From Rhizobium sp. BT03 (GTDB taxonomy: Bacteria > Pseudomonadota > Alphaproteobacteria > Rhizobiales > Rhizobiaceae): a DNA stretch of 64,000 bases. The stretch spans positions 2,989,501-3,053,500 of the forward strand of contig NZ_CP125640.1 of NCBI RefSeq assembly GCF_030053155.1, given 5' to 3'. Positions 1,112 to 62,892 of this stretch are shown piece after piece (position 1 is the stretch's first letter; each line of letters opens with the position of its first letter). The translations under genes were made by a program, and so were the position numbers. Below the pieces are notes generated by a model. The model was given only the letters and a program-made list of their open reading frames with translations. It made no database searches and had not been told where the DNA came from.

Positions 1112-3455
<2,344 letters not shown>

Positions 3456-3456
<1 letters not shown>

Positions 3457-3695
3457 TGAGCGACGCGCTAAACGAGATATTCTGCTGCGATTCCCTGAAG
3501 GGGGTCGTGGCGGATCTTCCGGAACCTGCCGCGCCGACCATCTATCGCGCCGATAACGGCGTGCTGATGATGGTGGTCGGCCTGGTCCAGAGCGAGGAAG
3601 GCCTCGGTTATCTCGACCAAGCGATAATGCACTGCCCGTTCTGCGGGACCCAATTGCAAGATGCGAAAGCCATAGCCGAGAAGGTAAGTCACTGA
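3456..3695 (+). CDS. Small CxxC (zinc-ribbon-like) protein inside the atp operon
   Basis: A 79-residue protein of unknown function encoded between atpD and atpC. Its ATG overlaps the atpD stop by one base and its stop overlaps the atpC start by one base, so it is translationally coupled on both sides. Seen: a C-terminal CPFCG half zinc-ribbon and two further Cys near the N terminus (FCCD). There is no signal peptide or membrane segment. A TTG one codon earlier (3453) is an alternative start. No function is recognised. The precise fit suggests it is expressed at ATP-synthase levels. Confidence 0.8.
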
Positions 3696-4102
3696 TGGCT
3701 GACAATTTCAACTTTGAGCTCGTTTCGCCCGAGCGTCTGCTGCTGTCGGAAATGGTGACCGAGGTCGTCATTCCCGCGACGGAAGGCGAAATGACCGTCA
3801 TGGCGCACCATGCGCCGACGATGACGACGGTCAAGCCGGGTCTCGTGAGCGTGCGTTCGGCCTCCGGCAAGAAGCAGGACTATGTCGTATTCGGCGGTTT
3901 CGCCGATATCCTGCCGACCGGCTGCACATTGCTTGCCGAATCCGCCGTACCGGTCGAGGAACTCCACAAGGACGAGCTGACCCGTCGCATCGAGGCCGCC
4001 CGCAGGGAACTCGAGCATGCCGAGCTGCACGAGCATAAGTCGAAGCTCGAGCACTTCATCATGGAACTGACGCATCTGAGCGGCATCGTCCAACAGGATT
4101 GA
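3695..4102 (+). CDS. atpC: F1F0 ATP synthase subunit epsilon
   Basis: Epsilon subunit of the F1 stalk, 135 residues. It has the N-terminal beta-sandwich (NFELVSPERLLLSEMVTEVV, EGEMTVMAHHAPTMT) and a C-terminal helical hairpin (ELTRRIEAARRELEHAEL) that in this family can inhibit ATP hydrolysis. It is the last gene of the operon and is followed within 30 bases by a strong intrinsic terminator. Confidence 0.97.
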   Translation: MADNFNFELVSPERLLLSEMVTEVVIPATEGEMTVMAHHAPTMTTVKPGLVSVRSASGKKQDYVVFGGFADILPTGCTLLAESAVPVEELHKDELTRRIEAARRELEHAELHEHKSKLEHFIMELTHLSGIVQQD

Positions 4103-4128
4103 TCGCAATCGATTTTGCAACGATGAAA

Positions 4129-4151
4129 GGCGGCTCAAGAGCCGCCTTTTT
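4129..4151 (+). terminator. Rho-independent terminator of the atp operon
   Basis: The inverted repeat GGCGGCTC / GAGCCGCC forms an 8-bp stem (effectively 7 bp with a CAAG tetraloop) followed by TTTTT, 27 bases after the atpC stop. Confidence 0.9.
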
Positions 4152-4244
4152 GTATTGTTCATCTCTCGGGATGCGCAGGCAAGGTGGGCGGTTTCAAACG
4201 AGAAAGCGGCGGCTATGGCCGCTTTGCCGACATGCCGGATCGGC

Positions 4245-4982
4245 TCAGAAGCCGGTGCCGCCGCGCAGCTCGATGACGAGCGTCTTCAATAGAATCTTCA
4301 AGTCGAGCAACAGGCTGAAATTCCTGACATAATAGATATCGCAGGCGATGCGGGCGCGGGCTTGCAGCGGTCGCGCCGTCGGGCCGCGCCAGCCGCGCGT
4401 CTGCGCAAGGCCGGTGATGCCGGGGCGCATGATGTGGCGCTGGTGGTAGTCCGGCACCAGTTCCTCATAGAGCCTGCCGGCTGCGCGCATATTGATCGCA
4501 TGGCAGCGCGGACCGACCAGCGACATCTCGCCGATAAGGACGTTGAAAAGCTGCGGCAGCTCGTCGATGTTGGTCCTTCGCAGCACAGCGCCGATGCCGG
4601 TCATCCGGCTGTCGCCCTTGACGGTCTGCCGAATGCCGCTCGGATCACAATCTTCGGCCCGCATCGAGCGGAACTTGAAGACCATGATCTTCCGGCCGTT
4701 CAGTCCCCAGCGGATCTGGCGGAAAAATACCGGACCGCCATCGTCGAGTTTGATGAAGAGAGCGATCGCCAGAAAAAACGGCGCCAGCACGATGAGGGCG
4801 CTGACGGAGGCGACGATGTCGAACAGCCGCTTTACGCCCAGTCGCATAGCCATCTTTCTTTCGACAGGCGAAAAGCTGTTCGGCTGGCGAATGTTGGAGT
4901 TCGCGACAACCAAGGTCCTGGTTTTGTCCTGACGCTGAGACGGATCGAAGCGTGAATTCTTCTTCGAAGTAAAAGCATTCAT
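4245..4982 (-). CDS. Undecaprenyl-phosphate sugar-1-phosphate transferase (ExoY/PssA type)
   Basis: Bacterial sugar transferase family. These enzymes move a hexose-1-phosphate from a UDP-sugar to undecaprenyl phosphate and so start assembly of an exopolysaccharide repeat unit. It has 245 residues. Seen: KRLFDIVASVSALIVLAPFF, the single N-terminal membrane helix; then the catalytic region with GGPVFFRQIRWG, KFRSM, RRTNIDELPQLFNVL, GEMSLVGPR and PGITGLAQTRGWRG. Members of this short class lack the four extra membrane helices of the WcaJ/PglC-long forms. The donor sugar cannot be read from sequence. The gene stands alone, so it could be a second ExoY-like priming enzyme rather than the main EPS one. 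Confidence 0.9.
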   Translation of the reverse strand: MNAFTSKKNSRFDPSQRQDKTRTLVVANSNIRQPNSFSPVERKMAMRLGVKRLFDIVASVSALIVLAPFFLAIALFIKLDDGGPVFFRQIRWGLNGRKIMVFKFRSMRAEDCDPSGIRQTVKGDSRMTGIGAVLRRTNIDELPQLFNVLIGEMSLVGPRCHAINMRAAGRLYEELVPDYHQRHIMRPGITGLAQTRGWRGPTARPLQARARIACDIYYVRNFSLLLDLKILLKTLVIELRGGTGF

Positions 4983-5149
4983 TACGCAAGGTCCACAAGT
5001 TTAGCTGCGATACTGAACTACAGGGAGACAGATACATGCTCATCTACCGTTTGTCATCGGTATAAATAAGAATCCCGTAACCCTAAAGAAGCCAAAAATG
5101 GGAGTATCTCGCGGTTAACCTTAACGCCTTAGTTGAAATGACTGGAAAT

Positions 5150-6370
5150 TTATACTTTAAAAGGAGTAGCCCGATTGGGTTGGTGGGGTGTCAGGCGGTT
5201 GCCGAGATCGATCGCCGGTTTCTCCAGCAGGTGGTAGCTGAGGCTGGCGACGAGAAGGACGAGCGCTGCCGCCAGTCCGCAAGACTGCAGCCAGCCGGTG
5301 ACGACATTTTCCGTGGAAGCGCCGAACGAACCGGGCTCGAGCCTCTGGATCGATATCAGGATGATCTCCTGCCAGATATAGATGCCGAAGGAGATCTTGG
5401 CGATGTAGCGGATGGGTGCATTGTCGAGCAGCCTGCCGAGGTGTTGCGAATGGCAGAGCGAAACGAGCGCCGTTGCGATCGCCAGCGGAAAGACCGGAAA
5501 GCCATAAGGGATTTCGAGCCAGCCGTAGGCTTCAGGGGTGCCGCCGGGCGATATGACTAGGCGGTAGCCGGCAACGGCGAGGGCCAGCAGCGCTGCGGCA
5601 TCGAACCAGAAGGAGGGCCGTCTTCCGAGCATGACCTCGACGCCGGCGGCGAACGCACCAAGGGCGAAGACGGAAAAGAAGCCGATCGGATTATATCGCG
5701 GCATCCACTCCTTCGCCCCGCCCTGGAGGCCGTATTGCCAGCCGCGCCCGATGTCGTCGAGCGGAAAGACGATGAGGATCAGCACATGGGCGAGGAGGAC
5801 GCCTGCGATGACGCAAAGCCAGGCGAAGCGGGCAAGCGGCGGACGCTGCCTGAGCAGGGGCAAACGAAACAGCAGGAAAAAGCAGACCGGCAGCAGCACA
5901 TAGCTGGTGACCTCGAAGGGAATCGACCAGAGCGGGCCGTCGGCTTCGACGGGAAAAAATGTGCGCCAATGCCATTGGCTCATGAACAGCAGCCCGGAGA
6001 CGTAGCGGAGCGTCAGCTCCGGCGTCAGCGGCAGGGCAAGCAGCGTCAGGCTGAGGGTGAAGCTGACGGTTGCGGCCACCCAGAAGCCCGGCGCGATGCG
6101 CGCCGCCCTGCGGATCGCGTAATGGCGCAGGCTCGGCATGGCGCGGCCGTCGTCGAGCGCGCGCCAGAAGGGATGGGCGAGAAGAAAGCCGCTGAGCACG
6201 AAGAAGATGGCAACGCCGAAATTGCCGAAGCGGAGGATCTGCGCAGCCGTTCCCAGTTCGTCGGGAATTCTGCGCATATCCAGCCGGAGCGCGAGGTGGT
6301 GGGCGAGCACCAGCAGACAAGCCGTCGCGCGCAGAAAGTCCGCTCCGGCCAGTCTTCCCTGTTGTCGCAT
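5150..6370 (-). CDS. Acyltransferase 3 family membrane protein
   Basis: OafA/ExoZ-type integral membrane O-acyltransferase, 406 residues, which decorates surface sugars with acetyl or similar groups. Seen: near the N terminus the RATACLLVLAHHLALRL segment, the family's first membrane helix with the conserved His, then about ten hydrophobic segments such as FFVLSGFLLAHPFW and YVLLPVCFFLLF. The C-terminal part FGIYIWQEIILI is typical. Acceptor unknown. It faces the same way as the sugar transferase gene and may act on the same polysaccharide, but the 170-base gap gives no proof of co-transcription. Confidence 0.9.
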   Translation of the reverse strand: MRQQGRLAGADFLRATACLLVLAHHLALRLDMRRIPDELGTAAQILRFGNFGVAIFFVLSGFLLAHPFWRALDDGRAMPSLRHYAIRRAARIAPGFWVAATVSFTLSLTLLALPLTPELTLRYVSGLLFMSQWHWRTFFPVEADGPLWSIPFEVTSYVLLPVCFFLLFRLPLLRQRPPLARFAWLCVIAGVLLAHVLILIVFPLDDIGRGWQYGLQGGAKEWMPRYNPIGFFSVFALGAFAAGVEVMLGRRPSFWFDAAALLALAVAGYRLVISPGGTPEAYGWLEIPYGFPVFPLAIATALVSLCHSQHLGRLLDNAPIRYIAKISFGIYIWQEIILISIQRLEPGSFGASTENVVTGWLQSCGLAAALVLLVASLSYHLLEKPAIDLGNRLTPHQPNRATPFKV

Positions 6371-45595: not shown

Positions 45596-46246
45596 ATGAC
45601 GATATTCAAAACAGCTTGCCTTCTCTTCGCCATCCTCTTCTCGCTCGCCTCGGCGGCGAGGGCCGATGACCTGCTGATCTGGGCGCCGGCCAAACTCTCC
45701 GACCGGTCCTACAAGGCGACGATGGGTTTCCGCCTGCCGGCGGAATGGGAAACCAGCGCCGGCGCCGATATCGCGCTCGCCTCGACCAAAGGCGGGGCGC
45801 CGCTGCCCGATTCCGAGCAGGCAATGCTCTGGGGCAGGATCGTCAGGACAAACGTCACGCCATCAGGCCAATCGCAGCGGGGCGCAAGGATCAGTGTCGA
45901 TACGCTGCGCGGCAGCGGCGCGCTGACGCTCAGCCGTTCACGCAGCTGGATCCTGTCGGATTCGCTCGATATGCAGTCGAGCCGGTCCATCAGCGTCCAA
46001 TACGACGCGGTCGATATCAAACGGGCCTCGGTGACGGCGTCGCAGGCGCTGAAGCTGATTCATCCCTGGACGGGCACCTCGCTTTCGGCAGGCGCCGGCA
46101 TCAGCAATGCCAGCGGCGATTTTTCGAGTTCGGTTGCCGTCAACCAGGCAATCCTGCCCAACCTCAATCTCGATGCATCGGTCAGCAATCCGTTTTCGGC
46201 AGATGAGGCCGGCAGCGTCAATCTGCGCTATCGCCTCAACTGGTAG
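45596..46246 (+). CDS. Secreted beta-rich protein of unknown function
   Basis: About 216 residues from the ATG 45596 (45584 also possible). Signal peptide MTIFKTACLLFAILFSLASAARA, then DDLLIWAPAKLSDRSYKATMGFRLPAEWETSAGADIAL-type alternating strands and a C terminus ending NLRYRLNW. The alternating pattern and terminal aromatic suggest a small outer-membrane beta-barrel, which is an inference. Family not recognised. Confidence 0.75.
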   Translation: MTIFKTACLLFAILFSLASAARADDLLIWAPAKLSDRSYKATMGFRLPAEWETSAGADIALASTKGGAPLPDSEQAMLWGRIVRTNVTPSGQSQRGARISVDTLRGSGALTLSRSRSWILSDSLDMQSSRSISVQYDAVDIKRASVTASQALKLIHPWTGTSLSAGAGISNASGDFSSSVAVNQAILPNLNLDASVSNPFSADEAGSVNLRYRLNW

Positions 46247-46321
46247 CCGCCCTGCAACCAAAACCGGCCGACGGGCGTTTCCTCCGCAGGTTTGACGCTC
46301 GGATATGAGGAGAAACGGATC

Positions 46322-46612
46322 ATGGTTTTCAAGGAGCAGACATTTCACGGGCTCGAGCCCGAGATGGAAGCGGAAATTGCCAATCGCGCATCGGTCGAAG
46401 CGGCCGTCGCCAACGCGCTGGCGATTGCCGGCGGCATCGATGCATCAGATGTCGAAGTGACGATGGAAAACGAGCACATCGTGCTGACCGGTACGGTCGG
46501 CACCGTCGGCGAGATCGAACGGGCGACCGCGGTTGCCAGGGCCGTCGAAGGCGTGCATGCGGTGCAGAACCGGATCCTGCTCGGCGGGCCTCCGCTTAAC
46601 GAGCGGCATTGA
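46322..46612 (+). CDS. BON-domain protein
   Basis: 96 residues with one BON (OsmY/secretin-type) domain: VEVTMENEHIVLTGTVGTVGEIERATAVARAVEGVHAVQN. No signal peptide seen, unlike OsmY. Ribosome-binding site GGAGAAACG before the ATG. BON domains bind phospholipid membranes. It follows the secreted protein gene by 75 bases on the same strand. Confidence 0.85.
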   Translation: MVFKEQTFHGLEPEMEAEIANRASVEAAVANALAIAGGIDASDVEVTMENEHIVLTGTVGTVGEIERATAVARAVEGVHAVQNRILLGGPPLNERH

Positions 46613-46645
46613 TGCGTCGTCGTCTCTCACTCAGCGCTCAGCCGA

Positions 46646-46798
46646 TCAACCGGCGAAGCGCTCGACGAGGAAGGACGAACCGGCCATGCGATCCGTCTTC
46701 TGCAGGGCCACCGGCCCGTGCGGCTGATAGGCGATGGCAAGCAGCACGGCGCTGACGGCGACATAAGCGATTGCCAGAAGAGTCATCTTGATACGCAT
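46646..46798 (-). CDS. 50-residue single-pass membrane protein
   Basis: Begins MRIKMTLLAIAYVAVSAVLL and ends SFLVERFAG: one N-terminal hydrophobic helix (about residues 5-24) followed by a short polar tail with QPHGPVALQKTDRM. Strong AAAGGAG 9 bases before the ATG. No family recognised. Confidence 0.7.
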   Translation of the reverse strand: MRIKMTLLAIAYVAVSAVLLAIAYQPHGPVALQKTDRMAGSSFLVERFAG

Positions 46799-46863
46799 GA
46801 CGCTTACTCCTTTCGCGAATAACGCGGCCGATATGGCGAAGTTCCGCGTGACGAAATCGGATG

Positions 46864-46889
46864 AAAAGCCCGGCCGATCAGCCGGGCTT
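46864..46889 (-). terminator. Terminator of the small secreted-protein gene
   Basis: On the minus strand AAGCCCGGC pairs with GCCGGGCTT around a 6-base loop, followed by TTTC, 15 bases after the stop of the next gene to the right. Confidence 0.75.
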
Positions 46890-46903
46890 CGTGCGTGGAT
46901 CGC

Positions 46904-47167
46904 CTATCGGCAGACCCTGGTTTCCTTGATGACCGTATGGCCATGGCGGCGTATTTTTTCCGTCTTGTTAAAGCAGTCGCGGGAAACGTAACGCCGACGC
47001 ATGTCGTGGCGGTAATAGGGGCTGTGATGGCGGTAATAGGGACGTTCCGAATCACGGTAGTACGGGCGTTCATCACCCGTGGTGATCGTCACACTGGCCG
47101 CCTGGGACGGCATTGCGGAAAAGATGGATGCGGCAGCGAGTGTGCAGGCAAGGATAATCTGTTTCAT
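46904..47167 (-). CDS. Small secreted Tyr/Arg-rich protein
   Basis: 87 residues: signal peptide MKQIILACTLAAASIFSAMPSQA, then ASVTITTGDERPYYRDSERP with repeated PYYRHH/RPYYR units (three copies) and a C terminus with two Cys (RDCFNKTEKIRRHGHTVIKETRVCR). The PYYR/HDMRRRY pattern is common in small rhizobial periplasmic proteins of unknown role. Confidence 0.8.
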   Translation of the reverse strand: MKQIILACTLAAASIFSAMPSQAASVTITTGDERPYYRDSERPYYRHHSPYYRHDMRRRYVSRDCFNKTEKIRRHGHTVIKETRVCR

Positions 47168-47333
47168 GACAAGCCTCTCTTTCTCAGTTGCTCATAGGAG
47201 CAACTCATTGGTCACGGGAGCAACTCGCCGGAAGCGCTGTCGGTTCAATCACATAGCGTTACGGATTGTGTCGAAGAGAAACCTTTGCGGCCACGGATCG
47301 TTACTTCTGGAGAGCGCCGGAGGCATCGAGAGA

Positions 47334-47852
47334 ATGAGATCGATTGCAAGGATCATCGCCATCGTCGCCGGGCTTGCCGGCGGCACGGTCTTTTCGCAGG
47401 CGCCGGAATTTGCCCAGCAATACCGCCAGCGGATCGGCGGCGCGATCGACGAATTGCGCGTCATCGTCGAGGATTTCAACAGACAGGCAGCCGACCACCA
47501 CCTCGATCGCCAGCAGGCGCTGAACACCTACGCGCACTCCTCCGACGATTTCCTCCGCGACCGCGGCGTCTCGATGCAGAGCACGATCACGCGCTACGAG
47601 ACGCTGCTGGCGCAGCAATTGAAACTCGGCACTGCGGACCCGGTCGCCAAGCCCCTCGTGCTGATGCGGGAACCGGATGATGTCGTTTTCGCCAATACCT
47701 GGCGCGATTTTGTGCCGAGTGTGCCGGTCAGCTTCGCAGGTCTTGTCTGGGGTGCGATTGGTTTTGTCGGTGGGTGGGTTGTGGCTGTGTTGCTCGGGGT
47801 GGGGGCGCAGCGAGTTGTGCGTGGGCGACGGGCCTATCGTCAGGCGTCGTAA
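47334..47852 (+). CDS. DUF2937-family membrane protein
   Basis: 172 residues. N-terminal hydrophobic segment (ARIIAIVAGLAGGTVFSQAPEFAQQYRQRIGGAIDEL, family hallmark), a central amphipathic helical region with DRGVSMQ, and a C-terminal helix (AGLVWGAIGFVGGWVVAVLLG). Two membrane helices with the helical domain between them. Function unknown. Last core-like gene before the accessory region. Confidence 0.85.
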   Translation: MRSIARIIAIVAGLAGGTVFSQAPEFAQQYRQRIGGAIDELRVIVEDFNRQAADHHLDRQQALNTYAHSSDDFLRDRGVSMQSTITRYETLLAQQLKLGTADPVAKPLVLMREPDDVVFANTWRDFVPSVPVSFAGLVWGAIGFVGGWVVAVLLGVGAQRVVRGRRAYRQAS

Positions 47853-47900
47853 GTACGGTGGCATTTTTGCGCTATTTGCTGCAGGCAATTCCTTTAGTTT

Positions 47901-48848
47901 TCAAGTCGTTAGATGGCGGCAAAAAATGCCAACTGTTATTTTGCCGCCGCCCGGGACCTCATCTGGCCAGATATGAATCCGGTTCTGATGCGGCTCCAGC
48001 TTAGTATGCCACCAAAAAAAGCGCTCCTCGCCGGCTATTATGATACAACGTTCCTGGCGAGCCGTCCCATTTTGCTTGGTTCCGCCGGTTTCGTCGGAAA
48101 TCTCTATACCCAATGACCCAAATTCGGCCGGAGCCTGTTGCCAAGACCCTCCAAAAATACGCTGTCCCTCATCAGACAAAGTACCCAAGTGCTTCACGAT
48201 CACTCGCGCCAAATCGCGATACTGTCCGGTCATTGCGCGGATACCGGTCCAGCAGCCATCCGCAAAATTCAAATTCTTAAACGACGCAAGCGCAAGTTCG
48301 GCCATCCCTGCGGGGGAGCCTGAATGTTCGGAGCTTATCCACCTGTAGAAAAGCTCGGCGTCCCGGTCCGTTTCTATAAACCATATCGGCCTCGAAACCG
48401 CACCGCTTAGTACGTCACGAAGGCCGGTATATCCTCGTGTTGAAGACGATATGCATGCGACAAGCTCCGTGTTGGGGTTCGCATTACGGAAATGCGCCCA
48501 CGCAACCGAAGGAAGATTCTGAACAGCCTGTCCATCAACGGACACATCGAAGTTGTCTGGCCATTCACCAGTTTCGTCCCATCGTGCTAAGGGGCCAAAT
48601 GCTGCCGCAGCTCGCTCTTGCAGATGCTTCGGGAGGACGATTGGTGCTGTTGGGTCGCATAAATCCCAAAAACACAAGTCACCAAGGATGGGTGTCTCAA
48701 AGAACTCGCTTGAATAGAGTACGTCCTTGCCCGCGAGGGCGGCATCGTCGACACGATCGAGAAACTGTTCCAGTACCTCAATACCGTTCAGCGGTGTGAG
48801 CCCATCAAGCCCTAGTGATGTTTCGTCCATAACGAAGCGGATCGTCAT
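47901..48848 (-). CDS. Unrecognised protein, third gene of the DUF262-ATPase operon
   Basis: 315 residues, no signal peptide or membrane helix. The N terminus RFVMDETSLGLDGL followed by LEQFLDRVDDAALAGKDVLYSSEFFE has early acidic residues, faintly like PIN-type nucleases; I cannot confirm this. Later: a WxH-rich tail (ERFFWWHTKLEPHQNRIHIWP). Its start overlaps the ATPase stop by 4 bases (ATGA), so it needs the two partners. In such operons the last gene is often the effector. Function unknown. Confidence 0.8.
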   Translation of the reverse strand: MTIRFVMDETSLGLDGLTPLNGIEVLEQFLDRVDDAALAGKDVLYSSEFFETPILGDLCFWDLCDPTAPIVLPKHLQERAAAAFGPLARWDETGEWPDNFDVSVDGQAVQNLPSVAWAHFRNANPNTELVACISSSTRGYTGLRDVLSGAVSRPIWFIETDRDAELFYRWISSEHSGSPAGMAELALASFKNLNFADGCWTGIRAMTGQYRDLARVIVKHLGTLSDEGQRIFGGSWQQAPAEFGSLGIEISDETGGTKQNGTARQERCIIIAGEERFFWWHTKLEPHQNRIHIWPDEVPGGGKITVGIFCRHLTT

Positions 48849-49921
48849 CGAGATCTTCGGACCCGGTTCAGGCGAGCTACGTCGAGTTGATATTGATCAA
48901 AAAATCCCGTGGGCCAATTCGAGAAACCACCCGAAGGAGTGAAAACAAGTGATTGGGCCGGTTTGTCTGCATTCTCAAAGAAATGAATGATGCCGTCATC
49001 GGAGTTTAGGATTCGTTGCTCACCCACAGCGCGTCGAATACCATTTAAGACGTGATCCGAATGGGTTTCTAGCAAGATTTGGACTCCAGCCGCCGCCATT
49101 CTCGCAAGGAAAATACCGATCTCCGACTGACCCGCAGGATGGAGATGTGCTTCAGGATTCTCGACAATCAACAGCCCGCCCATAGAGGCACTCAACGCGG
49201 CTACAACAATTGGGAGAACGTAGGTTACCCCAAAGCCCATGTTTGTAGGCCTTACAAACTCGCCTCCTGGCGCCCGGAACACGATTCCCGCAACTCCAGT
49301 ATCCGGGAACGTCGAGGTGTCGATTTGAACGGACGTCACAATGGCCGATAGCCATTGCTCTATTTGTGCCTTTAGTAGGGGCGGATTTTCTTCACCGCCC
49401 GGAAACCGCCGACCCCTATCTACAACTGTGCTGCCCAATTTGTCGATGACTTGCGCCGTATACTGCCCCTGCCAACCAACTTGGAGCTTCTCACGGGGAA
49501 GGGCTGCCGACGATTGAACGATTCGAGGACCGAGTCGTTCAGCACCCAGATACTGAAAACCCAGCGCGTCAGAAAATGCTCCCTGAAGGGGCAGCCTTAC
49601 GGAGGCGTAGAGTTCAGTGTCCCCTTCCTCGAATTTCCATGAAGCGCTTTCCGTTGCGTCCAGTTCAATCTCAACAGAGAATGAATTTTCTACTGAGCTT
49701 GTATTGACAAGACTGCCAAACCACCCAAGCTCAAGTCCGAATGGACCATTCAGTTCGGCTACACCATCGCCACGTTGGCTTGCCGCGAAGGCAAGGAGGA
49801 GGGCGTGGATTGTAGAGGTTTTTCCTGAACCGTTACGGCCTGCAAGAATTGTCAGTGGACGAAATTCAAGTTTCTCGGACCTGAATCTTTTGAAACCATG
49901 AATTGACAGAGAGGTGATCAT
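48845..49921 (-). CDS. OLD-like AAA family ATPase (DUF3696 type)
   Basis: 358 residues from the ATG at 49921 (coupled by ATGA to the DUF262 gene). Seen: ITSLSIHGFKRFRSEKLEF, Walker A LAGRNGSGKTSTI, ABC-type signature region, Walker B GGLLIVENPEAHLHPAGQSEIG and the H-loop LLETHSDHVLNGIRRAV. There is no TOPRIM domain, so it is an ATPase without the OLD nuclease. Such SMC/OLD-like ATPases serve as sensors in phage-defence operons (Septu, PARIS, retron partners). It sits between a DUF262 gene and an unknown gene. Confidence 0.9.
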   Translation of the reverse strand: MITSLSIHGFKRFRSEKLEFRPLTILAGRNGSGKTSTIHALLLAFAASQRGDGVAELNGPFGLELGWFGSLVNTSSVENSFSVEIELDATESASWKFEEGDTELYASVRLPLQGAFSDALGFQYLGAERLGPRIVQSSAALPREKLQVGWQGQYTAQVIDKLGSTVVDRGRRFPGGEENPPLLKAQIEQWLSAIVTSVQIDTSTFPDTGVAGIVFRAPGGEFVRPTNMGFGVTYVLPIVVAALSASMGGLLIVENPEAHLHPAGQSEIGIFLARMAAAGVQILLETHSDHVLNGIRRAVGEQRILNSDDGIIHFFENADKPAQSLVFTPSGGFSNWPTGFFDQYQLDVARLNRVRRSR

Positions 49922-51105
49922 TGCACGATTGCCTCGACACACTTCCGAGTCATGTTCAAACGGCGCTCTACCTTTCTAACATCACCCGTGCCAGCTCGAA
50001 CGGCACTGTCATAATTGGGGTCGTCGAATAGGTCTCGAAAAGCACCAACGATTTTTTGCTTATGAGGGAGCAGGCTCTCAACATCGTAATCGGCCAAGGC
50101 AAGTGCTTGAGCCTCAAAGATTGCCCGGTTTATCGGGCCGCGTCGTGCCGCGTTAGGTGGCCATCGACGAAACGCTGCTTCTTCAAGAATGGCCGCACAA
50201 TTCTGCATCGATCTCTCGAACGCAGCTTCCAGCCAGATAAGGTTCAGTGGTGACAGAAGGTCGCTTCTGGTAGTGTCTATTTGCCGAGTAAAGTCGAGCA
50301 AAAAACCATCAAGACTCGCGGCCTTTTCGTATTCTGCAATTGGCACTGTTCGAAATGCGCAAAACCTGAGCGCCATCTCACGGTCGGCCATTCTCTGATT
50401 GTCTCGAACAGGTGTTCCGTTTGGGTCTTTCGTCCAGAACGCAAAGCTGGTCGCTCTATCAAAGCTGCCTCGCTCAACCAGCGACTTCAAGAAATCCCGA
50501 GATTCGGTCTTGCTCATGCAATGGCGAATCTCCTGGGCGGTCAGCGGACTTCCCCCGGTATTTACCCTGTTAAAGATATCGTATTTTACCTCGTCTGGGG
50601 TTTGAGGTTCAATCACGTGAGCAACAATCTGCGTGCTGGCAAACCGCCGCCGAACGGGTGCGTCCAAGGTATCGTAGGTCTGTCCTTCAAGATCTTTCAG
50701 ATACTCAAGATGTGTATTGTGAAGCGATAAAGCATTAGACATAAAGAGCTTCACAGTCGTTAATCGTTGTACGCCATCAATGACCTGGTGGGCGCCTTGG
50801 CTGTCTTGGTTGAAATAGAAGGCGGGCAGTGGAATTCCGAGCAGAACAGATTCAATTAGTCTGATCTGCTGGCGATCCTTCCAGACAAAGCTACGCTGAA
50901 AATCCGGCGCCAAGTCGAGTTCGTCATGTTCGATCTGACTATAGATTTCTCGAATCGTGAAGTTTTTTGTGGTGATCCGTATCTGCTTTGGATCCCAAGG
51001 CTTTACGCCTTCGGTCTCCGTTTCTTCCGGTTCAACGGCGACCTCAATTTGGGTCATCAACGGGGCGAACAAATCATTTGCGTTTTCGGGATGCGCTCCG
51101 CTCAT
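49918..51105 (-). CDS. DUF262 (ParB/Srx-like) domain protein
   Basis: 395 residues. The N-terminal DUF262 core is clear: FTIREIYSQIEHDELDLAPDFQRSFVWKDRQQIRLIESVLLGIPLPAFYF (about residues 49-98) and VIDGVQRLTTVKLF, where the family norm is DGQQR (here Q to V). DUF262 proteins such as GmrS, SspE and BrxU-type enzymes use NTP hydrolysis to sense modified or phage DNA. The usual DUF1524 HNH nuclease partner domain is absent; the C-terminal 200 residues are helical with no visible nuclease. First gene of the operon, followed by ATGA coupling. Confidence 0.88.
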   Translation of the reverse strand: MSGAHPENANDLFAPLMTQIEVAVEPEETETEGVKPWDPKQIRITTKNFTIREIYSQIEHDELDLAPDFQRSFVWKDRQQIRLIESVLLGIPLPAFYFNQDSQGAHQVIDGVQRLTTVKLFMSNALSLHNTHLEYLKDLEGQTYDTLDAPVRRRFASTQIVAHVIEPQTPDEVKYDIFNRVNTGGSPLTAQEIRHCMSKTESRDFLKSLVERGSFDRATSFAFWTKDPNGTPVRDNQRMADREMALRFCAFRTVPIAEYEKAASLDGFLLDFTRQIDTTRSDLLSPLNLIWLEAAFERSMQNCAAILEEAAFRRWPPNAARRGPINRAIFEAQALALADYDVESLLPHKQKIVGAFRDLFDDPNYDSAVRAGTGDVRKVERRLNMTRKCVEAIVQ

Positions 51106-51451
51106 AATATCTCTTCTCGATTGCTGAAGCTTTGTATTCTGGATTCCAGGACCCTACAAGATAAGGCTTCGTCTCATGTATGCTAAACCTTCCAAATTAT
51201 GCGTGCGTCTTGCGTGTGAGCGCCGTCTCATTTTCCTCAATGCCCAGTTCAGTTCTTCGACGACAACGCCGAGAGCCGCGACAATTGTTCTCCTTGCTCT
51301 TGGCATCACTGTAATAAGTGGCAGCTTGCGTCACCGATTTGTGCAGCGATTGCCGCATGGCAACTACTGACCCAAATATGGATCAGCAAGGCCGCCTAAA
51401 GGGAGCACCATAGCAAAGGCAATATTTGGCAATTGAAATTTTCAATCTTCA
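51106..51451. other. Promoter region of the DUF262 operon and flank of attL
   Basis: About 345 bases without a supported gene. It should hold the leftward operon promoter. A 15-base inverted repeat ATTGAAATTTTCAAT (51431-51445) ends 7 bases left of the tRNA fragment's CCA and may once have terminated the tRNA. Confidence 0.4.
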
Positions 51452-51496
51452 TGGTGATCCCGGCGCGATTCGAACGCGCGACCCCCAGATTAGGAA
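51452..51496 (-). other. attL: 3' fragment of tRNA-Arg(CCT)
   Basis: Minus strand, reading leftward: anticodon loop TTCCTAA, TCTGG, variable loop, T arm GCGCG-TTCGAAT-CGCGC, acceptor CGGGATC, discriminator A and encoded CCA. Position counting from the T arm puts CCT at 34-36. The preceding bases cannot pair with TCTGG, so only the 3' part is present. It is the displaced tRNA end left by phage integration. The intact tRNA should lie at the far right end of the prophage. Confidence 0.85.
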
Positions 51497-51556
51497 ACCG
51501 CTACAAATCCATATAGCACACGGCGTTCCGCGTTCCTTGTCGCATCCATGTTGCAG

Positions 51557-52792
51557 TCACGCCATGAATGCCTTCTCCGCGGCCGCCAATTCGTCGGCGT
51601 CATTGTCTTTCGGAAACAGATGTCCGTAGGTATCCATCGTCATCGCAATGGTTGAGTGGCCCATGCGCTCCTGAACCATCTTCGGCGTCAGGCCAAGGCC
51701 GCCGTCTTCTTTTCGGTTGATGCACCAGGAGGCATAGAAATGTCGTAAGGCGTGCATGCCCGTATATTTGGGCGCGAGGATCGCCTTGCCCTTCTTGTCG
51801 ACTCTGCCACTGTCCACGGCGATGCCGGCGGCAACCCAGGCCGGGTGCAGACCGCGCCGCAGGATGTTGTTCAGCTGTTCGACTCTGCCGGTGCCATTCG
51901 GGAATACGAGATCGAGCACCAGGATCGGTTCGCCGACTGCGTCCTTCTTGCCGGTATTTCGCTTCGGGCAGGCGAGCTTCCATTCTTTCAGGGCGTTGAT
52001 GACCATAGGTGGCGCTGGAACCGTCCGCTCGCTGGATTCCGACTTCGGCCGGCCGATGTCATTGAACCGATCGGCACGCTGGCGGACGTGGATCTCGCGT
52101 TTGTCGAGGTCGACATCCGGCCACCTCAGCCCTCGCAACTCCGATGCACGCAGACCGCAGAAGATCGCCATCATGATCATTGGGCGCCAACGGCCCACCA
52201 GAACGGCTAGGATCGCCTTGACGTCCTGGCGGGTGGGAATATCCACTCCGACCTTCAGTTTGCCCTTCTGACGCTTCTCCTGCTTCTTGTCGCCCGAACC
52301 TCGCCGCCGCTTCATGTCCCGCGCCACGTTTCTCGCAACAAGACCAAGTTCCTGAGCGTCAGTAATGAGTGTGCCGAGGCTCACCAGAACCTTCTTAATC
52401 ATTGCTGGCGATCGGCTTGCCTCCCTCAGGTCATCCTCGAATGCGCGCACCTTGGCGATCGAGAGGCTGGGCAGTTTCGTCTTGCCGATGAAAGGATTGA
52501 TGTGCAGCCTGAGGTGGCGCTCGTAGTCTTCGATGGTCGCGCGCTCGAGCCCCGCCGCCTTGGCGCTGACTATCCAGAGCTTCCCAGCCTCCTCGACGGT
52601 GACGCTGGCGCTCTCGGCTACATGCACCCCCTCCCGGATTTCGACTGACGCCGTTGCTGCAAAAGAATCGGCAGCTTTCTTTTTTTTAAATGTTTTCAGC
52701 CTGCGTTTGCCGGCGGAGTCTGTATAGTCCACTACCCAGGCCGACTTTTGAATGCCTTTCGGCGTTGTCCACTCGCGTTTGCGGACGCTCAT
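51557..52792 (-). CDS. int: Phage tyrosine integrase
   Basis: 411 residues. N-terminal SAM-like/AP2-like arm-binding region, core-binding domain, and C-terminal catalytic domain with R in LRASELRGLRW, the HALRHFY (HxxR-type) and GHSTIAMTMDTYGH with the nucleophilic Tyr. It recombines the phage site with the tRNA-Arg 3' end, whose fragment lies 60 bases downstream. Transcribed toward the att site. A T-rich low-complexity run (KKKKAAD) occurs near residue 37. Confidence 0.95.
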   Translation of the reverse strand: MSVRKREWTTPKGIQKSAWVVDYTDSAGKRRLKTFKKKKAADSFAATASVEIREGVHVAESASVTVEEAGKLWIVSAKAAGLERATIEDYERHLRLHINPFIGKTKLPSLSIAKVRAFEDDLREASRSPAMIKKVLVSLGTLITDAQELGLVARNVARDMKRRRGSGDKKQEKRQKGKLKVGVDIPTRQDVKAILAVLVGRWRPMIMMAIFCGLRASELRGLRWPDVDLDKREIHVRQRADRFNDIGRPKSESSERTVPAPPMVINALKEWKLACPKRNTGKKDAVGEPILVLDLVFPNGTGRVEQLNNILRRGLHPAWVAAGIAVDSGRVDKKGKAILAPKYTGMHALRHFYASWCINRKEDGGLGLTPKMVQERMGHSTIAMTMDTYGHLFPKDNDADELAAAEKAFMA

Positions 52793-53338
52793 CTATTCCT
52801 CACGAGTTTGAGCTTTGTGTTTCCTTGTCTGCTCCTGATACCAGCGTACAAGCCGCGCGTACTCCCGATCCCTATCGCCACCGCTTTGCCTGTCGGCGTC
52901 GAATACAGCGACTCGGAAGCTTACGGTCTCAACACCGGCGGCCTTCGCGGTACGGTGGATATGCGCGGCAATCTCTGGCCACGAGATTGGATGCCCTTTG
53001 GCGTCTAAAACCATGTTGAATATTGGTTCTTCTTGAGATGGAGCGTGATCCTGGCGGGCTTCGTCCGCCCTATCTAGTCGTTCGATCAGATCAGCTTTTA
53101 GAGCTTCGAGATATTCATTCACGCCGATAGCTTCGTCCAGTTTTGCCTGAAGCGATTCAATCAGAGCATTGGCTTCTTTTTGTCCGTCTTCCTCCCATTG
53201 CAGAGATCTATCGAGGCGGTGAAGGATCTCTGCATTCATAGAGCGACCAGAAGCGTCGCTGGCTTCCTTTAATTCGTCTCGCAGTCCTTCGGTGAGCCGA
53301 AGTGTGATTCTTACTTCGTCGTTTTCAGCCATTGCCAT
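52793..53338 (-). CDS. Arc-like ribbon-helix-helix protein
   Basis: 181 residues from the ATG at 53338 (53332 is next). Ribbon-helix-helix domain at about residues 3-55 (VRITLRLTEGLRDELKEASDASGRSMNAEILHRL), then a coiled-coil helix and a C-terminal region with DAKGHPISWPEIAAHI. Phage Arc/Mnt-type repressors bind operator pairs, and repeated TGGTGT sites precede this gene. Likely the lysogeny or integrase-region repressor. Stop lies 1 base from the integrase start, so co-transcribed with int. Confidence 0.8.
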   Translation of the reverse strand: MAMAENDEVRITLRLTEGLRDELKEASDASGRSMNAEILHRLDRSLQWEEDGQKEANALIESLQAKLDEAIGVNEYLEALKADLIERLDRADEARQDHAPSQEEPIFNMVLDAKGHPISWPEIAAHIHRTAKAAGVETVSFRVAVFDADRQSGGDRDREYARLVRWYQEQTRKHKAQTREE

Positions 53339-53374
53339 CGGGTTCCAATTAACGTTTGTGAATGCCGATACCAC

Positions 53375-53426
53375 CATTTTGACACCATGTCTTGACACCA
53401 AAATGGTGTGACACTAAGATGGTGTC
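53375..53426. promoter_or_regulatory. Cluster of TGGTGT-type operators in the divergent control region
   Basis: ACACCA-AAA-TGGTGT (53395-53400 / 53404-53409) and ACACTA-AGA-TGGTGT (53411-53425), both with 3-base spacers, plus two further half sites CACCAT upstream (53372-53390). They lie between the Arc-like gene and the rightward helix-turn-helix gene. Phage genetic-switch operator for the ribbon-helix-helix protein is the likely role. Confidence 0.7.
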
Positions 53427-53451
53427 GTTAACCTTAACGGAGTCGCAGGGA

Positions 53452-53643
53452 ATGACAACAGAGAAAGAGCCTAAGCTCGATTTGATCTGGGAGGTGTCGG
53501 AGATCGCGAAACTCATCGGCCGCACTGAACGACAAACATTCCACCTTCTCAGCGGCGGCCAGCTGCCGGCCAAAAAGGTCGGCGGTCGCTGGGTGGCAGA
53601 GCGTGGCAAGCTCATCGCCTTCTTCATGGACTCAGCAGCATGA
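53452..53643 (+). CDS. Helix-turn-helix (excisionase-like) DNA-binding protein
   Basis: 63 residues from the ATG at 53452. WEVSEIAKLIGRTERQTFHLLSGGQLPAKKVGGRWVAERGKLIAFF is an Xis/MerR-like winged-helix fold. First rightward gene after the switch region, so excisionase or early regulator. Overlaps the next gene by 4 bases. Confidence 0.8.
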   Translation: MTTEKEPKLDLIWEVSEIAKLIGRTERQTFHLLSGGQLPAKKVGGRWVAERGKLIAFFMDSAA

Positions 53644-53975
53644 ACCGGAAAACGAAAGGCTCGGCAGAGGCTGCAACCTCTCCGAGCCTGGTCCAATCAA
53701 CCTTGGAAGGATTTGATATGAACGAGACCATCAATAACACGGACGGCGGAGCGACGCCAAGCGTAAACGCGCCAAGGCCTCTTAGGCTCCAACTCGGCTA
53801 CATTTCCGATCTGGCCAGCAATATCGGAAGTATGGTCGATGTAATCGACATGGCGGTTCGCGACATTGACGACAGCCGGCAGCGGAATGCCATGGCAACT
53901 GTATGTGACGTCGTCATGGACAAAATGGACGATCTGAAAAGACAGATTAACGCCGTTCGGGAGGAGCTGAGATGA
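53640..53975 (+). CDS. Small phage protein, unknown
   Basis: 111 residues; helical C-terminal region (IGSMVDVIDMAVRDIDDSRQRNAMATVCDVVMDKMDDLKRQINAVREEL). An internal ATG at 53718 has a much better ribosome-binding site (GGAAGGA) and may be the real start. No family recognised. Confidence 0.65.
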   Translation: MNRKTKGSAEAATSPSLVQSTLEGFDMNETINNTDGGATPSVNAPRPLRLQLGYISDLASNIGSMVDVIDMAVRDIDDSRQRNAMATVCDVVMDKMDDLKRQINAVREELR

Positions 53976-54223
53976 CCGCCACCCTCCTGCAATCCCGCAA
54001 TCGGATCGAAGAACAGATCGAAGCTCTTATCGGTCTCCTCGATTTCCTCGACGATGACCCGGACCTTGAGCCAGACAATGACAACGAGCCATCGTTAGGC
54101 GCCCCGGAACATGTCGTTCAAAGCCACTGGTATGCGCCCGTTTCTGCCGAGGTCTGTGACACAGAACTCGAAAACGAGAACGACGAACAAAATGGTGACG
54201 ACGAACCGGAGGATTTCGAATGA
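53972..54223 (+). CDS. Small acidic phage protein
   Basis: 83 residues, very acidic (DDDPDLEPDNDNE and a C-terminal DEQNGDDEPEDFE). It overlaps both neighbours by 4 bases. An acidic DNA-mimic (anti-restriction-like) role is possible from composition alone; no family match. Confidence 0.65.
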   Translation: MTATLLQSRNRIEEQIEALIGLLDFLDDDPDLEPDNDNEPSLGAPEHVVQSHWYAPVSAEVCDTELENENDEQNGDDEPEDFE

Positions 54224-60881: not shown

Positions 60882-61355
60882 ATGACAGGCAGACCCACCA
60901 AGTTCACGCATTCCCTTGCCGACATCATCTGCGAGCGCATTGCTGACGGCGAAAGCCTCCGATCGATCTGCAGGGATGATGCCATGCCGGCAAAGTCGAC
61001 GGTGTTGGCCTGGCTGGCTGATGACGACAAGACCGCTTTTCGGACCAAGTATGCGCAGGCGCGCGAGATCCAGGCCGACGGCTTCGTCGACGAGATGGTC
61101 GAGATTGCCGACGACGGCACGAACGACTGGATGGAAAAGAAGAACGCCGACGGCGAAACGACCGGCTGGCAGGAGAACGGGGAGGCGCTTCGACGCTCGC
61201 AGCTCCGCATCTCGACGCGGCAGTGGATTGCCGAGAAGCTGAAGCCCAAGAAATACGGCGCCAAGGTCGAGCTGGAACACGGCGTGACCGGCGAGGTGTC
61301 GCAGCTGCTGGAAGCTATCAATGGCAAAACCCGCGGACTTCCAAGCGGCGGTTGA
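60882..61355 (+). CDS. terS: Terminase small subunit
   Basis: 157 residues. N-terminal helix-turn-helix-like DNA-recognition part (ERIADGESLRSICRDDAMPAKSTVLAWLADD), central oligomerisation helix with a KKYGAKVELEH stretch typical of Sf6/terS-like proteins. It recognises pac/cos DNA for packaging. Overlaps terL by 35 bases. Confidence 0.85.
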   Translation: MTGRPTKFTHSLADIICERIADGESLRSICRDDAMPAKSTVLAWLADDDKTAFRTKYAQAREIQADGFVDEMVEIADDGTNDWMEKKNADGETTGWQENGEALRRSQLRISTRQWIAEKLKPKKYGAKVELEHGVTGEVSQLLEAINGKTRGLPSGG

Positions 61356-62892
61356 TCAGTTCTCGGACTGGCGCTGGCGGCTCAACAACCTCTACTGGAT
61401 CACGGACAAGGAAGGCAAACGCGTCCGGTTCGAGATGAACTGGGCTCAGATGACGTTCTTCGAGCAGATGCACTATCTGAACGTGCTGCTGAAGGCGCGC
61501 CAGCTGGGGCTGACGACGTTCATTCAGATATTCATGCTCGATGCCTGCGTCTTCAACCGGGATATTCGCGCCGGCACCATCGCTCACACGCTCGGCGACG
61601 CGCAGACCATCTTCCGGGACAAGGTAAAATATCCTTACGACAACCTGCCAGAGGGCATCCGGGAAGCGGTGCCGATCGTCAGGGATAACCAGACTGAATT
61701 GCTCTTGGCGAACAATTCGAGCATCCGCGTCGGAACGTCTCTTCGATCGGGAACGCTGCAGTACCTGCACATCTCGGAATATGGGAAGCTCTGCGCCAAG
61801 TATCCGGAGAAGGCGAGGGAAGTTCGGACCGGTGCCCTCAATACCGTCCAGGCTGGACAGCTGGTGTTTATCGAGAGCACCGCCGAGGGGCAGGAGGGGC
61901 ATTTCTACAACCTCTGCGAAGACGCTCAGGTAAAGCATCGCCAGGCATCAGCGCTGACGCCGCTCGATTTCAAGTTCCATTTCTTTCCGTGGTGGAAGGA
62001 GCCGCAGTATTCGATCGCGCCCGAGGGCGTCATCATCTCGGAAGCGTTCGCCAAGTACTTCCGCACACTGGCCGACCAAGGCATCGAGCTGACGGACGGG
62101 CAAAAGGCCTGGTACGTCAAAAAGGCTGAAACGCAGCTGGGCGACATGAAACGGGAATATCCGTCGTCGCCGGCGGAAGCGTTCGAAGCCAGCGTAGAGG
62201 GCGCATACTATTCGGATCAGATGGCGGTGGCCGATGCCGAGGATCGGATAGGCATCTATCCGCATGTGGCCGGCTACCCGGTGCACACGATATCCGACAT
62301 TGGCATGGACGACACGAACAGCGTCTGGCTCTTCCAGGTGCTCCCGAGCCGGGTTCGGATGATTGGCTACTTCGAACACACTGGCACCGGCATGGACGGC
62401 ATGCTCGACGAGCTGGAGCGGCGCGGCGGCGAGCACGGATATGTCTATGGCGTGCATAACATGCCGCATGACATCCGCGTCAGGGAGTGGACCCGCGGCG
62501 GTCTAACGCGCATCGAGGTGATGCTGGCGGAGGTCAAGGCGAGAAACCTGGGAACGGTGCGCAAGATCGAACGCGCCTATGTTCACGACCGCATCAACGG
62601 TACGCGGCGCATCCTGGCAAAGATCGAGTTCGACCAGGCGGGATGCACTCAAGGCATCAAGTGCCTCAGGAACTACCGGAAAGAATGGGATGAGGATCTG
62701 AGCGTTTTCCGCGATGTGCCGCTGCACAACTGGGCATCCCACGGCGCCGACGCTTTTGGAGGCCTGGCGATCATCTTCACCGGATTGGCGGCCGAACCGC
62801 TCAAGCCTGAACCAAAGCCGCTGCGGACATTCCAGACCATGACGTTCAACGATTTCGTCAACTCGACACCGACCCAAAGCGAGCACGTTTGA
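61321..62892 (+). CDS. terL: Terminase large subunit
   Basis: 523 residues. ATPase: Walker A-like KARQLGLTT (variant of the terL P-loop), Walker B with YLHISEYGK (ending Glu-Tyr), then RNase H-like nuclease domain with Asp cluster ISDIGMDDTNS and GMDGMLDEL. Powers DNA packaging into the procapsid and cuts the DNA. Followed by 1-base overlap with the portal gene. Confidence 0.93.
   Translation: MAKPADFQAAVDQFSDWRWRLNNLYWITDKEGKRVRFEMNWAQMTFFEQMHYLNVLLKARQLGLTTFIQIFMLDACVFNRDIRAGTIAHTLGDAQTIFRDKVKYPYDNLPEGIREAVPIVRDNQTELLLANNSSIRVGTSLRSGTLQYLHISEYGKLCAKYPEKAREVRTGALNTVQAGQLVFIESTAEGQEGHFYNLCEDAQVKHRQASALTPLDFKFHFFPWWKEPQYSIAPEGVIISEAFAKYFRTLADQGIELTDGQKAWYVKKAETQLGDMKREYPSSPAEAFEASVEGAYYSDQMAVADAEDRIGIYPHVAGYPVHTISDIGMDDTNSVWLFQVLPSRVRMIGYFEHTGTGMDGMLDELERRGGEHGYVYGVHNMPHDIRVREWTRGGLTRIEVMLAEVKARNLGTVRKIERAYVHDRINGTRRILAKIEFDQAGCTQGIKCLRNYRKEWDEDLSVFRDVPLHNWASHGADAFGGLAIIFTGLAAEPLKPEPKPLRTFQTMTFNDFVNSTPTQSEHV

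Follow-up and report, generated by a model that had tools for sequence, protein, structure and literature searches.

Genes and features of the locus

The window analysed in this study, a stretch of 64,000 nucleotides from Rhizobium sp. BT03, carries on its minus strand three consecutive genes, which lie between a DUF2937 gene and one end of a prophage. The features of this region are listed below; the positions are those of the window.

47079..47852, plus strand: DUF2937 gene (PF11157, 1.9e-36), conserved boundary of the cargo spot on the left
47901..48848, minus strand: nsnC, 315 aa, without Pfam family; PADLOC NsnC PDLC03914
47904..48287, minus strand: NsnC residues 188-315, predicted RelE/YafQ/YoeB-like (BECR) domain with R267, H281, K283, R290, H292 and H312
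48339..48848, minus strand: NsnC residues 1-170, N-terminal half, weakly PIN-like in the model
48845..48848, minus strand: ATGA overlap of nsnB and nsnC, read on the minus strand
48845..49921, minus strand: nsnB, 358 aa from ATG; OLD/PtuA-like P-loop ATPase with a C-terminal DUF3696 stretch, without TOPRIM
49918..49921, minus strand: ATGA overlap of nsnA and nsnB, read on the minus strand
49918..51105, minus strand: nsnA, 395 aa; DUF262/GmrSD_N (ParB/Srx-like) protein with the DGVQR motif, without DUF1524
51452..51496, minus strand: 3' part of tRNA-Arg(CCT), att end of the prophage; 45 bases identical in the intact tRNA-Arg
51557..52792, minus strand: tyrosine integrase of the prophage (Phage_integrase, 2.9e-15), not part of the trio system
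61321-62892: terminase-like gene of the prophage, named from the sequence by eye

The trio is real and intact-looking. A sequence-only reading of this DNA had described a three-gene operon with ATGA at both junctions, and the open reading frames at 47901-51105, together with the junction sequence, agree with it; the list of open reading frames also contains an alternative GTG start of nsnB at 49942. Promoter and terminator scans of the region 47700-51600 yielded signals no more numerous than in shuffled sequences, and Rfam, run over 46000-54000, gave a single, sub-threshold match (E 0.092). The G+C content of the trio (0.50-0.53 in 1-kb windows) is lower than that recorded over 40-47 kb (0.61-0.66). 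Low G+C values (0.51-0.59 over 51.5-60 kb) are likewise found in the prophage to the right, and for this reason the earlier statement that the trio is poorer in G+C than its surroundings is true only with respect to the left flank.

The prophage, approximately 38 kb in length, resides in tRNA-Arg(CCT) to the right of the trio, and extends from 51452 to position 89407 on the scale of the window. The segment 51452-51496 can be recognized as one of its ends because the same 45 bases recur in the intact tRNA-Arg(CCT), at C1:3078863-3078907 (window-scale 89363-89407). The intact gene (C1:3078863-3078939; window-scale 89363-89439) is placed outside the window, and ARAGORN detected no tRNA within it. 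The trio had been located beside a tRNA site of phage integration: an att site in a tRNA gene does adjoin it, while the window itself holds only the 3' part of that gene. The trio was rejected as cargo of the prophage, since the att site at 51452-51496 separates it from the integrase and the other prophage end lies at 89363-89407. No second tRNA fragment was found in the window to the left of the trio. A ParB-like ORF (L053:1025-1879) was noticed by eye close to the right-hand prophage end.

A variable-cargo spot

The trio sits in a variable-cargo spot between the DUF2937 gene and tRNA-Arg(CCT). When 120 genomes of the genus were searched, the region of the left gene was matched, at any strength, in 54 others, and 20 of these, taken from the strongest, were compared. 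In all 20 the DUF2937 gene is followed by tRNA-Arg(CCT), which is intact in 18 genomes and represented by the 3' part only in the other two (L074 and L086). The spacer between them varies among these relatives, as the earlier guess of a cargo hotspot had anticipated: it measures 378-389 bp in six genomes and 662-8338 bp in fourteen. The corresponding spacer of the window (3.6 kb, between 47852 and 51452) holds the trio, to which no DNA match was obtained in the spacers of the 20 relatives. Eight cargo proteins were analysed, five of which could be assigned to a Pfam family (NYN twice, metallophosphatase, DUF3800 and HTH) and three of which could not; four proteins of this set had weak or partial matches in PADLOC. 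An extra tRNA 3' fragment is present in one of the loci (L079).

Assignment of the trio to Menshen

The PADLOC models NsnA (PDLC03877), NsnB (PDLC03878) and NsnC (PDLC03914) match the 395-aa, 358-aa and 315-aa proteins with E-values of 1.3e-114 (residues 25-394), 3.5e-96 (residues 1-352) and 2e-82 (residues 4-315), respectively. Each match covers nearly the full protein, and the models follow the gene order A-B-C on adjacent genes. The Nsn names can be equated with Menshen because a Vibrio phage record (PQ189377) annotates three consecutive genes, in the order A-B-C, as Menshen__NsnA, NsnB and NsnC. All three proteins, their order and their adjacency are common to the trio and Menshen, and we regard it as virtually certain that the trio belongs to this system (NsnA-NsnB-NsnC). 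Judging from sequence, this Menshen-type operon is likely an anti-phage system. Menshen domain polymorphism has reportedly been the subject of a study by Li et al. in 2025.

The trio had originally been proposed to form an undescribed three-gene defence system. The third protein, for which neither Pfam nor NCBIfam has a model, speaks in favour of this proposal, which is nevertheless contradicted by the PADLOC models for all three proteins, by the Menshen phage record and by the publication of ptuXYZ (PMC11980606); it was rejected as extremely improbable. The search for a named system with PADLOC, foreseen in the sequence-only reading, ended with a Menshen match for each of the three proteins. 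In the relevant passages of Mariano and Blower 2023 (PMC10952713), Menshen is counted among the DUF262 systems, and resistance is stated to be lost when its DUF262 gene is mutated or deleted. The mechanism of Menshen is given as unknown in the corresponding part of a 2026 review (PMC12926258), and the words “Menshen” and “Nsn” are absent from the main text of an article on OLD nucleases (PMC10568477).

The domain content of NsnA and NsnB proved to be as described. NsnA contains GmrSD_N/DUF262 (3.6e-27), which is its sole Pfam family up to E 1; this agrees with the description of a DUF262 protein devoid of the DUF1524 nuclease part. The motif DG[VIL]QR is present in 6/6 aligned sequences, and FNRVNTGG is kept. 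NsnB contains Pfam AAA_21/AAA_15 and a C-terminal DUF3696 stretch, with no TOPRIM family up to E 1, in accordance with the OLD-like ATPase without TOPRIM that had been postulated. Its match in the PDB to retron-associated PtuA reached 2.3e-07, and the motifs GxNx[SA]GK[ST], [ED][NS]PEAH[LI]HP and [TS]HSDH occur in all six aligned sequences. NCBIfam provided no further name above its cut-offs for the proteins of the trio.

Distribution of the trio

Matches to the NsnA model (1e-20 or better) were found in 35 of 200 related genomes, the own genome included, and 16 of the 34 others were inspected at the locus. In the five relatives with NsnA scores of at least 378 bits (G019, G017, G057, G115 and G023), NsnB invariably adjoins NsnA, the third gene is called NsnC by PADLOC, and the order is A-B-C. 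Co-occurrence in this order was observed in 5/5 relatives with a strong NsnA, as well as in PQ189377. The 11 weaker matches (at most 241 bits; one of them, G103, on a 3.4-kb contig) were accompanied by no NsnB detectable by blastp, and were regarded as DUF262 proteins of another kind.

In a phylum-wide sample, the NsnC profile matched 3 of 397 other genomes at 1e-8, each time with NsnB beside it. The NsnC matches on plasmids also adjoin an NsnB match (4/4), and the trio of Burkholderia glumae p19s3p has 4-base overlaps at both junctions. A scan of genome contigs with NsnC gave no confirmed match. Matches to NsnB at 1e-20 or better also occur in two Vibrio phage records. In PQ189377, the Menshen NsnABC trio (2096-5994) is placed between an integrase and a CI-repressor-type gene. 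In G057 (L038) and G115 (L039), the trio has neighbouring ORFs that resemble, by eye, conjugation genes (TraG-like, TrbB-like).

NsnC is the variable part of the system, because its best models differ among the five relatives: PDLC03914 (G023), 03879 (G019 and G017), 03888 (G057) and 03896 (G115). The NsnC of the window belongs to the PDLC03914-type branch, and only one of the five strong copies in the relatives (G023) has the same best model. The NsnC of G057 (L038:6512-7258) is shorter (248 aa) and has no R-I-H; it represents another NsnC type at the equivalent position of the operon.

Fold and conserved residues of NsnC

The third protein had been said to match nothing known. This holds for Pfam, which gave no match up to E 1, but not for PADLOC, whose NsnC model fits it well, nor for the predicted structure, which is RelE-like. 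In the AlphaFold2 model (pLDDT 93.9), the C-terminal domain appears to adopt the BECR fold of the RelE/ParE superfamily, and the fold predicted for the C-terminal part of a second NsnC family is the same. Two alignments were prepared: A1 comprises 32 of the 37 NsnC matches (P0027 and the shorter P0033, P0035, P0036 and P0037 were left out), and A2 comprises 59 of 86. The alignments of the two families revealed a conserved set of H, R-[IVL]-H and a terminal H or K, which is present in five of the six loci compared, whose NsnC branches are otherwise unlike. P0027 (398 aa), with AAA families and an NsnC cover of 92%, might be an NsnB-NsnC fusion or a joined fragment.

In the N-terminal half, D8 is found in 32/32, E9 in 31/32 and E48 in 22/32 sequences of A1, and in the second family (A2) the D is replaced by N in 58/59. 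This half is probably without a full or working metal site.

RelE-type Pfam families matched none of the 32 NsnC members, hhalign of NsnC against a (shallow) YoeB profile was negative, and PDB sequences searched with the NsnC profile gave no hit better than E 0.07. Foldseek of the first NsnC model against the PDB and BFVD returned no match at E 0.001. The structural matches of NsnC include ParE chains, and the fold is common to ParE according to passages of PMC11980606, so NsnC might be ParE-like, binding gyrase or DNA and cutting no RNA. We find this improbable: ParE is described in the same passages as devoid of the catalytic residues of the RNase members, whereas NsnC keeps invariant H/R/K.

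Relationship to other systems and a possible mode of action

A comparable published system is ptuXYZ, portrayed in parts of Gerdes 2025 (PMC11980606) as a DUF262 protein without DUF1524, a PtuA-like ATPase and a PIN-like plus YoeB-like third protein. The trio likewise has a DUF262 protein without DUF1524 followed by a PtuA-like ATPase, and the third proteins may also correspond, the model of NsnC having a putative YoeB-like BECR domain after the weakly PIN-like half. Neither “Menshen” nor “Nsn” occurs in the main text of PMC11980606, ptuXYZ having been published under another name. Set side by side by description, the two architectures suggest that Menshen and ptuXYZ are one system. We give even chances to the fuller statement that one system was described twice, with a BECR-fold RNase as effector, the H, R-[IVL]-H and terminal H or K set as its active site, and the ABC ATPase and ParB-like NTPase, in place of a small protein, as the “antitoxin”.

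Other systems are more distant. The A protein of PD-T4-2 shares the DUF262 family with NsnA (1.6e-30, PADLOC), but a much better fit is obtained with the NsnA model (1.3e-114), and the other two proteins best match Nsn models. The type IV restriction systems GmrSD, BrxU and SspE have the DUF262 domain in common with the trio, which lacks their DUF1524 nuclease domain, while the TOPRIM domain of the OLD/GajA nucleases was not found in NsnB (up to E 1). PARIS (AriA/AriB) and Septu (PtuA/PtuB) share the OLD/PtuA-like ATPase; no TOPRIM was found in the trio, and the model of NsnC is RelE-like. In PARIS and Septu this type of ATPase is paired with an effector.

We favour, with moderate confidence, an explanation in which NsnC is a toxin of the RNase type, restrained by NsnA and NsnB. 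NsnB, as an ABC/PtuA-like ATPase, would be the scaffold that keeps NsnC inactive, and NsnA (DUF262, ParB/Srx fold, DGVQR) may be the sensor or switch responding to a phage-linked DNA or nucleotide signal. Upon infection, NsnC would be released or switched on, and the active protein would cut mRNA or tRNA, so that the infected cell would be halted before producing phage. Cleavage of tRNA has been reported for AriB of PARIS and for Septu. Because they have similar ATPases, the target of NsnC is, by analogy, likely to be tRNA or ribosome-bound mRNA.

Alternatively, NsnC might not be the killer: the DUF262/ATPase pair would cut or block phage DNA, and NsnC would serve as an adaptor, its RelE-like fold doing no more than binding to RNA or to the complex. 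In favour of this, nsnC varies strongly (four best PADLOC models among the window and five relatives), which would suit a component that confers specificity, and the N-terminal half of NsnC seems degenerate. Moreover, Mariano and Blower (PMC10952713) suggest, in a passage of their article, an NTPase regulating an associated OLD nuclease. This possibility is nonetheless doubtful, as the invariant residues of NsnC include, in two families, the polar H/R/K of the RelE-like domain, and a known nuclease domain is present neither in NsnA (without DUF1524) nor in NsnB (without TOPRIM). For the latter reason, the RelE-like domain of NsnC is the best enzyme-like candidate of the trio, in keeping with the toxin explanation.

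Conclusions

To conclude, as one more copy of a named system the trio is ordinary. It also points to a single architecture behind Menshen and ptuXYZ, which were described under separate names. The residues H281, R290 and H312 of NsnC are named positions at which a RelE-type RNase action of Menshen may be probed, and the mapped Rhizobium cargo spot by tRNA-Arg(CCT) is a place in which further defence genes may be sought.
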